A DNA stretch of 64,000 nucleotides from Gemella morbillorum (GTDB lineage Bacteria > Bacillota > Bacilli > Staphylococcales > Gemellaceae). The DNA lies in NCBI RefSeq assembly GCF_900476045.1, contig NZ_LS483440.1:1116001-1180000 (forward strand), written 5' to 3'. A program made the translations under genes and the position numbers. Under the pieces are notes generated by a model. That model had not been told where the DNA came from and made no database searches. It was given only the letters and a program-made list of their open reading frames with translations. This document shows, piece after piece, positions 1 through 42,450 of the stretch. Within the stretch, counting starts at the first letter, position 1. Every line of letters starts with the position of its first letter.

Positions 1-338
1 CTACTCTCGTAAAAATAGCTGTGATCATCTGTCTAAATATATACATATTTCCTATTCCTACATTCAATTCTGCGGAATAAGTGCTTCTACCAAAATTTGA
101 ATTGCTCACTCAAGGGGTTTACCTCGTTCCACTTCTTATATTTCTATAAGAACTTCGTCACTGTGGCACTTTCAAGATGTATAACCATATACATGTACTT
201 AGGTTATACTTTCTGCCGTCACCTAATGGTGCCTAAACTTATTTTTTCGTTTAGCGTTGAACACTACAAGCATCTCAGCTTGTGTGAGTATGGACTTTCC
301 TCAGCGAAATACACCGCGACCACTCAAAGAAAAATACT
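1..338 (-). ncRNA. rnpB: RNase P RNA, Bacillus type (3' end off window)
   Basis: This is the catalytic RNA of ribonuclease P, which matures the 5' ends of tRNAs. Read on the minus strand it contains the conserved GAGGAAAGTCC block near the 5' end (complement of 292-302), the GACGGCAGAAAG block, CTTGAAAGTGCCACAGTGAC and the GTGGAACGAGGTAAACCCC block, and near the window edge AGACAGATGATCACAGC. All of these match the Bacillus subtilis type B RNA in order. The 5' end is estimated from the promoter at 345-373. About 40-60 nt at the 3' end lie beyond position 1. A 91-residue open frame on the opposite strand is a shadow of this RNA. Confidence 0.95.
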
Positions 339-20564: not shown

Positions 20565-20771
20565 TTATTGATTTTTATTTTTTAAGTGCATTTATATTTA
20601 ACTTTTATCGTTATATTTTAAATTATAAAAAATTTCTACTAATTAGCTATATAATTATTTTTATTTTATTTTTTTTAAACAAATTATTTTTATATAAAAG
20701 CGTTTCATGTTAAAATTTAAAATGTATATTAATACACCTAATTATAATTTATAGATACAGGAGGAAAAACA

Positions 20772-22136
20772 ATGAAATATATAGTTGTTGGAACATCGCA
20801 CTTCGGATATGAAGCAGTTCAAACTATTTTAAAAAATGACAAAAATGCTGATATTCATTTATATGAGAGAGGCTCTAGCGCTTCTTTTATGGGATGAGGT
20901 AGTCAATCTTATTTAGATGGGACATCTAAAGCATTATCAGAATTACACTTTGCAACAGAAAAATCTTATGCTGAACAAGGAATTAATATTCACTGCAATA
21001 GCGATGTTATAGGATTGAATGCAAAAGAGAAATACATAATAGTAAAAACTTCTTCTGGAGAAGAAGAAAAACAAAACTATGATAAACTTCTTTTAAGCCC
21101 AGGTGGCGCAGCAATTAAACCACCATTTGAAGGAATAGAATTAGAGAATATTCATACATTCCGTGGCCCAGAAGATACTCAAGCAGTATACGATTGCATG
21201 CAAAAAAGTAAAAAAACAGTAGTTGTAGGTGGTGGCTATATCGGCCTTGAAGTTGCAGAATCTTATGCAAAACATGGCATCGATGTTACAATCGTTGATT
21301 TTGCTCCAAGGATTCTAAATACATATCTAGACCAAGAACTTACTGATATCCTAACTAATGAAGGTGCAAAACACAACCTTAAAGTTCATGGTGGGGAAAA
21401 AGTTCTTTCATTTAAAGGTGAAAACGGAAAAGTTACATCTGTTGTAACAGACAAAGGCGAATATGAAGCAGACACAGTAATTATGTCAGTTGGAGTTCGC
21501 CCTGACGCTTCATGGTTAAATGGTGAATTAGAATTAACTGAACGCGGCTTTGTTATAACTAATGAATACCTAGAAACATCTGCTAAAGATGTATATGCTG
21601 GTGGAGACTCTACACTTCTACCATACGCTCCTACTCGCGGTCAATTACCAATTGCACTTGCTACTTTAGCACGACGTCAAGGAGTAATTGCAGCATTAAA
21701 TGCTATGGGAATCAAAACTAAAATGCCTGCTGTTAATGGTACATCAGCATTATCATTCTTTGATTATAAATTTGTGAGTACTGGATTATCACAAAATGGT
21801 GTTAACCTTTATGATGGCAAGGTCTCTTCTAAATATGTAGAGGAGAAGATTTACCCAGACTTTATGAGAAAAGAAAATAATCTTGTTCACATGAAAATCT
21901 ACTTCGATGAAGATACACACAGAGTTTTAGGAGCTCAATTAATGTCTAAACATGACGTTTCTAGCGCTATCGCAGCATTATCTATAGCTATCGCATCAGA
22001 CTGGACTTTAGAACAATTAGCACTTGCTGACATATTCTTCCAACCAGAATTTGATCGCCCATGGCACTTCATTAATGTACTTGCAATGGCAGCCCTTGAT
22101 TATAAATTAGGTGGAGCAGATAAATTACTATTCTAA
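20772..22136 (+). CDS. nox: NADH oxidase/peroxidase family flavoprotein, predicted selenoprotein (TGA at codon 42)
   Basis: A 454-codon flavoprotein disulfide reductase that reduces O2 or H2O2 with NADH. It starts at ATG 20772 after AGGAGG with MKYIVVGTSHFGYEAV, including the family's active-site His10. Codon 42 (20895-20897) is TGA, precisely where enterococcal NADH oxidase and peroxidase have redox-active Cys42 (SFLSCGM there, SFMG-U-GSQ here). The frame is otherwise intact: NAD-binding KTVVVGGGYIGLEVAESYAKHG, FAD-binding DVYAGGDSTLLPY, and C-terminal DIFFQPEFDRPW. A stem-loop with a G-rich apex lies 22 nt after the TGA. The likely reading is selenocysteine. A nonsense mutation is the alternative; without readthrough only 41 residues would be made from this start. 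It is divergent from groESL and ends in its own terminator. Confidence 0.85.
20912..20930 (+). promoter_or_regulatory. candidate bacterial SECIS stem-loop in nox
   Basis: TTTAGAT (20912-20918) pairs perfectly with ATCTAAA (20924-20930) around a GGGAC loop; a further G-C pair can close inside. The loop begins 22 nt after the TGA and starts with G, within the spacing and loop rule known for bacterial SECIS elements. It lies inside the coding region. Confidence 0.6.
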
Positions 22137-25702: not shown

Positions 25703-25728
25703 AGGAGCTAATTAATTAGCTCCTTTAA
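25699..25728. terminator. bidirectional terminator overlapping both stop regions
   Basis: A perfect 30-nt palindrome (TTAAAGGAGCTAATT and its complement) separates the secreted-protein gene from the MetE-like gene. The palindrome includes both stop codons. Confidence 0.85.
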
Positions 25729-26915
25729 TTTTTGTAGTATCTTTCTCTCAACATTTGCGCTGCTGCAACCATATTTTTCAATTTTTTTTGGATAATCGGG
25801 TACGGATTTAACGGTCGCTTAGCGAATGTTGCAAAACCACAATCAGGATTTAACCAAATTTTTTCAGGTGGAAGAAACTGTAAAACTTCCTCTACCCTTT
25901 CAACTATTTCTTCAACAGATTCAATTCGTTCACTTCGCGGGTTAATACAACCAAACCCTAGAATTATCTTGGTATCTAAGAAGTTATTAAAGAATAGTTT
26001 TTCTATTTCTCCTGCTCGCGGTGTTGAAAATTCTAGTGCTAACATATCTACATCTAGCGAATCAAAAAACTTACCTAATTTATCATATGCACCATGTAAT
26101 AAAACACTCTCATCTGTAGTCCAATTCCCTCGACATACATGCATTGCACTGGTGACACCTTCATACTTTCTAATTTCTGCAAGTACAGGCGTCAGCAATG
26201 ATTTTGCAAATTTTAACTCTTTGTCAACCTTGACTTTTTCTGATAAGGCCCCTCAGTAAAAAGAGTTATCTGCTTTTTCATTAGTAAATACTACCTCTGA
26301 TAAAATAGGTTCATCAATTTGAATTATTTTAGCTCCACTTTCTACCAATTCACGTATTTCATTACATAAAAGTTCTACAACATCTTCTCCCAATTCACGA
26401 CGCCCATCATAAACTTTTCCTGTTACTTCTTTTAACCACATTGAACGTGTTAATAAATATGGGCTTGGCAAGGTGCATTTTATATCACCATCTACTAATT
26501 CTTTTAAGATACCAAATTCAAAATCATTAAGTCTCTTTTTTGTATCAAGTTTTGAAAAACATATAGGGCTATTCATCGTATCGTCTGCAGCATCCATTTC
26601 TTCTAAACTCTTGCTAAAATTATCAGTATTATTAGTTAACGACATTACTTCTTCCATATTAAGTAATTTTATACCATCAACGACTTCAGCCACATAACTC
26701 ATATAATTATCTCTATTTAACTCACCGCTTACTATTACATCAATTCCACATTCTTTTTGTAATTCAACTACTCTGCGAGTTTCTTCCAATAATTTTTCTT
26801 TATACGCTTTTTCATACTTCGAACTATTATTACTACTTTCTTTTAATAATAGTAGTTCTTTAGTTCTTGGAAGACTACCTATTAAAGTTGTTGTAAAAGG
26901 TTTAAATTTCGTCAT
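25725..26915 (-). CDS. MetE-like (cobalamin-independent methionine synthase C-domain) protein, predicted selenoprotein (TGA at codon 221)
   Basis: A single-domain, 396-codon relative of the catalytic half of MetE, a zinc methyltransferase fold. It begins at ATG 26915 after AGGAGG with FTTTLIGSLPRTKEL. Zinc-ligand counterparts of MetE are seen: His259 and Cys261 (MHVCRGNW), Glu295 (DMLALEFSTPR) and Cys359 (IWLNPDCG). Codon 221 (complement of 26253-26255) is TGA in NSFY-U-GALSEK. The frame is open from 1 to 220 and from 222 to the TAA, with no other lesion, and the two parts complete one domain. A palindromic stem with a GG apex lies 24 nt after the TGA. The gene upstream is YedF-like, a selenium-linked family. 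Selenocysteine is the best reading; a nonsense mutation is the alternative. The methyl donor and acceptor are unknown. Confidence 0.8.
26223..26234 (-). promoter_or_regulatory. candidate bacterial SECIS stem-loop in MetE-like gene
   Basis: On the minus strand GTCAAGGTTGAC is a perfect palindrome: a 4-5 bp stem with the GG at its apex, 24-25 nt after the TGA. Spacing and G-rich apex match the nox element, although the stem is short and does not extend well. Confidence 0.45.
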
Positions 26916-42211: not shown

Positions 42212-42256
42212 TAATCCTTCAATATACTAATAAAATTAGAATAAAATACTAAGAAA

Positions 42257-42325
42257 GCCCATAGTCGTTAAATTTACGGTTAAACGGTAGAAACTCGCAA
42301 GCCATATTCTTGCAGTTATATGTGC
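42257..42325 (-). promoter_or_regulatory. purine riboswitch aptamer, guanine type
   Basis: The minus strand shows the conserved core in order: ATATAA, ATATGG, GTTTCTACC, CCGTAAA and GACTATGGGC, with a P2 stem TGCAAG/CTTGCG and a P3 stem CGTTTA/TAAACG region. The specificity base before the final TATGG is C (GACTAT), which selects guanine or hypoxanthine; adenine types have T there. Ligand binding should favour the terminator and shut off pbuX. Confidence 0.93.
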
Positions 42326-42450
42326 ATATTTATTCTATTAATATATCAATTTTTATTTATAAATTCAAGTGTTAAATTAAAATTTTTTATTATTTTTCTT
42401 AATTACTTAAATGTGTATAATTAAATAATCATATATAACTTTTTATATTA

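Follow-up and report, generated by a model that had tools for sequence, protein, structure and literature searches.

A predicted selenocysteine form of NADH peroxidase in Gemella morbillorum, and probable recurrent Cys/Sec exchange in its family among Bacilli

The analysed stretch of Gemella morbillorum DNA (the window, 64 kb of a 1.76 Mb genome in one contig) contains a gene for an NADH peroxidase-type flavoenzyme (npx; 20772..22136, forward strand), which is predicted to incorporate selenocysteine (Sec). The reading frame starts with an ATG after an AGGAGG ribosome-binding site (20759..20764), which is kept in the Gemella orthologs, and ends with TAA at 22134-22136; it comprises 454 codons, counting Sec, and its sole internal stop is the TGA of codon 42 (20895..20897), followed by 413 open codons. 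This TGA aligns with Cys42 of the Enterococcus faecalis NADH peroxidase (Npx), and the active-site histidine of the family, His10, is coded by CAC at 20799..20801. An earlier note, made from the DNA alone, had described a frame open except for codon 42 and preceded by AGGAGG, a TGA exactly at the position of the redox cysteine, and a conserved His10; the first of these is confirmed on the sequence and the other two by the alignment. In annotation, such a gene could easily be mistaken for a pseudogene or a truncated fragment. Alignment of the upstream regions revealed little conservation except for the ribosome-binding site; a PerR box upstream of npx was also considered and dropped, as no good match was found and the pattern is over-represented throughout the AT-rich window.

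The window was scanned for TGA-interrupted frames having 15 or more codons ahead of the TGA and an open run of 80 or more codons behind it. Of these, just two were not plainly shadows of larger or known genes: npx and a MetE-type gene (PF01717) on the reverse strand (25725-26915), with a single in-frame TGA at codon 221 (NSFY*GALSE). The latter is a probable second selenoprotein gene. Another Gemella genome (G004, locus L170) has a MetE-like gene, 74% identical, with TGA at the same codon, while a homolog on a Paracoccus ferrooxidans plasmid (WGR63586.1) has Cys at the TGA position and adjoins a gene annotated as selA. A candidate hairpin, GTCA-AGGT-TGAC, was read by eye in the MetE-like gene, with a loop that begins 22 nt downstream of the UGA, and codons 225-234 around it are identical in the two Gemella; under the terms searched, a 2026 review (PMC13188914) lists no MetE-like Sec family. 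The window also comprises a class B RNase P RNA, cut at the window edge (1-331, reverse strand), and a purine riboswitch (42242-42343, reverse strand).

The machinery for Sec synthesis and insertion is encoded in the same genome. Profile searches of the genome identified, all above the family cut-offs, selA (246670-248019), selB (243557-245416), selD (241338-242246) and tRNA-Sec (235213-235305), which are the genes that the earlier note had proposed to look for; the complete set of selA, selB, selC and selD, by which a bacterial selenoprotein is recognised, is thus found in one genome. The selD, selB and selA genes are clustered with SirA/YedF-like and cysteine-desulfurase-like genes, these two being named from their translations. 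The selD gene itself contains one in-frame TGA, in the context CGG-TGA-NSKIGPG, and is a predicted selenoprotein gene in its own right.

A bacterial SECIS element (bSECIS) is expected as a hairpin soon after the UGA whose apical loop begins with G, and npx has a predicted hairpin of this type, TTTAGATG-GGA-CATCTAAA (20912..20930, forward strand), with 8 bp and a GGA loop that begins 22 nt downstream of the UGA. Its folding energy is by itself weak evidence, as an equally stable fold is obtained in 9% of synonymous shuffles, and 7% of them form all 8 pairs; because of this, the case for the hairpin relies on conservation and covariation. In a set of nine Gemella-type genes, synonymous variation affects 82% of the 291 degenerate codons with an invariant amino acid; within the hairpin only one codon in six is affected, the change lying in the loop, and the 9-codon windows around the hairpin are the least variable in the gene. 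In two more distant TGA-containing loci, L125 and L138, compensatory changes occur at two pairs (T-A to G-C or A-T, and T-A to C-G). Pairing is kept in 98.8% of the alignment cells, and falls to 24-54% when the register is slid; in the homologous stretch of the Cys-encoding genes, 3-7 of the 8 positions pair. Similar elements are found elsewhere: the selD gene of the same genome has 8 pairs closing a GGG loop, 17 nt downstream of its UGA, and in a third distant locus, L139, a hairpin of its own has GGA in the loop, also at 17 nt. The Sec genes of a further family, f7, displayed no clear conserved bSECIS; two candidates, the consensus from RNAalifold and one of 5 bp drawn by hand, were discarded, since neither showed covariation.

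Codon 42 is TGA in all the Gemella orthologs found, which have 77-92% identity (G. sanguinis and G. haemolysans 90-92%, Gemella sp. GH3 77%) and an otherwise open gene; the earlier note had suggested comparing this codon among homologs, and no close relative has TGC or TGT. The Gemella-type TGA loci number 12, some of them being the same species in two collections. The TGA is present also in four further lineage groups: L125, L138 and L139 (the same as L058, from an Atopococcus tabaci MAG), with identities of 67%, 50% and 48% respectively, and f7, which includes seven genomes (L124, L150-L155) and whose protein resembles the classical E. faecalis Npx most (68% identity for L124). In the tree set, every remaining Npx row, 38 of 38, has Cys at this position, and the nearest Cys homologs, from Globicatella, Ruoffia, Aerococcus, Carnobacterium and others, use TGT or TGC. 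Codon 42 therefore shows what is expected of a selenoprotein, a UGA in frame at a position where the homologs conserve Cys. One genome, G465, carries both Npx-type forms, Sec and Cys (C1:173043-174377 and C41:80383-81726; L154 and L159).

TGA lies one base away from the TGT and TGC codons of the closest Cys homologs, so that a nonsense mutation or a sequencing error in an ordinary Cys npx gene might be proposed; this explanation is very improbable, since the same TGA is shared by all the Gemella orthologs found and by several other lineages, the remaining frame is open and conserved, and the sel genes are present in the genome. Conservation of the TGA at codon 42 across lineages excludes a chance origin. 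Decoding of UGA as Trp or Gly through a changed genetic code, or near-cognate read-through, has nothing in its favor except the open frame and is hardly credible: only two plausible read-through genes occur in 64 kb, which fits Sec insertion and not a genome-wide change, for which reason the altered code was rejected; the 38 Npx rows without TGA always have the redox Cys at position 42, with no instance of Trp or Gly; and the TGA forms co-occur with selA and selB. Indeed, selA was found in 10 of 10 and selB in 7 of 7 of the TGA genomes searched, while in the Cys-form genomes searched selA is absent from 11 of 13 and selB from 8 of 10, the exceptions, which retain the Cys form despite the sel genes, being two Aerococcus MAGs (G022 and G023). 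The reading of UGA42 as Sec is thus very probably right, judging from the comparative sequence data, and would extend well beyond a single strain.

Other genomes give a view on the history of the sel genes. In one Gemella genome (G001), selA and selB are present and no npx ortholog was found at the cut-off used, indicating that the sel machinery is not kept for npx alone. G011 (L112), a genome of the same family that lacks a TGA-form ortholog, contains a C-terminal selA remnant (G011:C1:30904-31182; 58 bits, profile positions 364-454) and gave no selB match, which looks like a loss of Sec decoding. In G440, a single contig carries selB and the Sec npx at a distance of about 9 kb (G440:C3:32293-44358).

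The earlier note had proposed an NADH oxidase selenoprotein; the Sec assignment holds, but the name of oxidase does not. Among proteins of solved structure, the best relative, E. faecalis Npx, scores 365 bits and shares 42% identity over 440 aligned positions; oxidases follow with 246-290 bits, and CoA-disulfide reductases with at most 187. An AlphaFold2 model of the protein (mean pLDDT 91.3) retrieved Npx entries at the top of a fold search, with Z of 49.8-50.9 and rmsd of 1.7-1.8 Å over 442-443 residues, compared to Z of 44-48 for oxidases. Residue 303 is Arg in this protein, in 15 of the 16 Sec rows and in all 38 Cys rows, and Glu14 is retained as in Npx; the nine outgroup rows have Val, Ile or Asn at 303 and Ala, Phe or Ser at the Glu14 position. 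The top NCBIfam model is the H2O-forming NADH oxidase NF046103, with 364 bits against a cut-off of 600; the CoA-disulfide reductase model TIGR03385 reaches 307 bits, below its cut-off of 578.8, and the motif is UGSQ, not UGxP. Taken together, the similarity to Npx, Arg303 and Glu14, the fold and the sub-cut-off oxidase scores led us to name the protein a Sec NADH peroxidase. Full-length sequence and fold are closest to Npx, and His10 and Arg303 are present; residue 42 is coded by TGA instead of Cys, making the protein a Sec variant of the family and not a standard member. A search of the same genome revealed no second close Npx/Nox paralog.

From these similarities, the enzyme most likely has the chemistry of a peroxidase and not of an oxidase. 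A genuine Sec enzyme with a main substrate different from H2O2, namely a water-forming NADH oxidase or an enzyme acting on organic peroxides or low-molecular-weight disulfides, is an unlikely, yet not negligible, alternative: the oxidase model ranks first in NCBIfam, albeit well below its cut-off, and the fold is common to Nox and CoA-disulfide reductase, but the similarity to Npx exceeds that to any oxidase, the Arg303 and Glu14 of Npx are kept and differ in the oxidase-type relatives, and all the Sec forms fall inside the Npx side of the tree.

This tree was built with 63 rows (16 Sec, 38 Cys and nine outgroup), after removal of the columns around residue 42, and its starred branches force at least three Cys/Sec changes; L138 and L139 may be paired through a long-branch effect. 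Only columns 41 and 44 of the whole alignment distinguish all 16 Sec rows from all 38 Cys rows. Residue 41 is Gly in 15 and Ala in one of the Sec rows, versus Ser in all 38 Cys rows, while residue 44 is Ser or Thr in the Sec rows versus Ile, Ala or Met in the Cys rows; Met at residue 40 is found in all Sec rows, and also in 10 Cys rows. We consider it probable that Npx has a Sec form, with at least three exchanges between Cys and Sec among Bacilli, and that each Sec form is accompanied by Gly or Ala at 41 and Ser or Thr at 44. What surprises most is that this change recurs so close to residue 42; the substitutions at 41 and 44 may accommodate selenium, through its greater atomic size or its hydrogen bonding, or may matter for the UGA context on the mRNA. 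If the pattern is true, they would represent a small code, local to the site, for housing selenium where a flavin-linked sulfenic acid otherwise forms. The Sec form of L139 (G015, Atopococcus MAG) lies on a long branch and has Ser in place of Arg303 and Gln in place of Glu163, possibly reflecting a changed substrate or relaxed selection.

The explanation that we favor, with high confidence on the basis of the sequence comparisons, is that the gene codes a homologue of the enterococcal Npx in which UGA42 is decoded as Sec and Sec plays the role of Cys. Sec-tRNA(Sec) would be produced by SelA using selenophosphate from SelD; when the ribosome meets UGA42, the downstream hairpin would recruit SelB with Sec-tRNA(Sec), and translation would proceed to the natural stop. 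By homology, NADH would reduce FAD, and the flavin would reduce the oxidised residue 42; the selenolate, together with His10 and Arg303, would then attack H2O2, with formation of water and of a selenenic acid, which would be re-reduced by the flavin. Sec would thus act in the Cys role with a local adjustment at residues 41 and 44. By chemical analogy, the Sec enzyme may have an altered rate or resistance to overoxidation, as the earlier note had suggested. Gemella is catalase-negative, so that Npx would be a natural defence against H2O2; these findings would place the use of Sec, and a predicted selenium-dependent peroxide defence, in this genus. Npx is a textbook example of an enzyme in which a cysteine sulfenic acid is stabilised, and the structure matches include crystal structures of its active-site mutants; a comparison of natural forms from adjacent branches, Sec and Cys, would allow the effect of selenium on rate, pKa and overoxidation resistance to be measured, as well as the roles of residues 41 and 44.

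Sec forms named "NADH oxidase" or "CoA-disulfide reductase" have been listed since 2006 (PMC1794560, PMC2398784, PMC9312934); an example of this Sec FAD-dependent oxidoreductase family is Geobacter metallireducens WP_011365774.1 (PMC1794560, PMC9312934, PMC13188914). A text search of the literature retrieved no Sec NADH peroxidase, which may nevertheless have been listed earlier under another name, and no report on selenoproteins or selenium for Gemella or Vagococcus; in the searched parts of the 2026 review, there is no Npx entry (PMC13188914). Thus, the Sec Npx appears to be unlisted in the literature searched.

The Sec CoA-disulfide reductases belong to the same flavoenzyme superfamily, and Sec replaces the redox Cys, at a position deduced from the motif. 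The 2026 review gives this motif as UGxP for the CoA-disulfide reductase/NADH oxidase family (PMC13188914), which is of the TIGR03385 type, whereas the Gemella protein has UGSQ, is of the Npx type and occurs in Bacilli. The water-forming Nox enzymes (PDB 2cdu, 5er0, 2bc0) share the fold and the position of the redox Cys with the Gemella protein, but with lower similarity. E. faecalis Npx (PDB 1npx, 1joa) resembles it over the full length, in His10, in the position of residue 42, in Arg303, in Glu14 and in the fold; the enterococcal enzyme has Ser41, Cys42 and Met44, while the Gemella protein has Gly41, a predicted Sec42 and Ser44.
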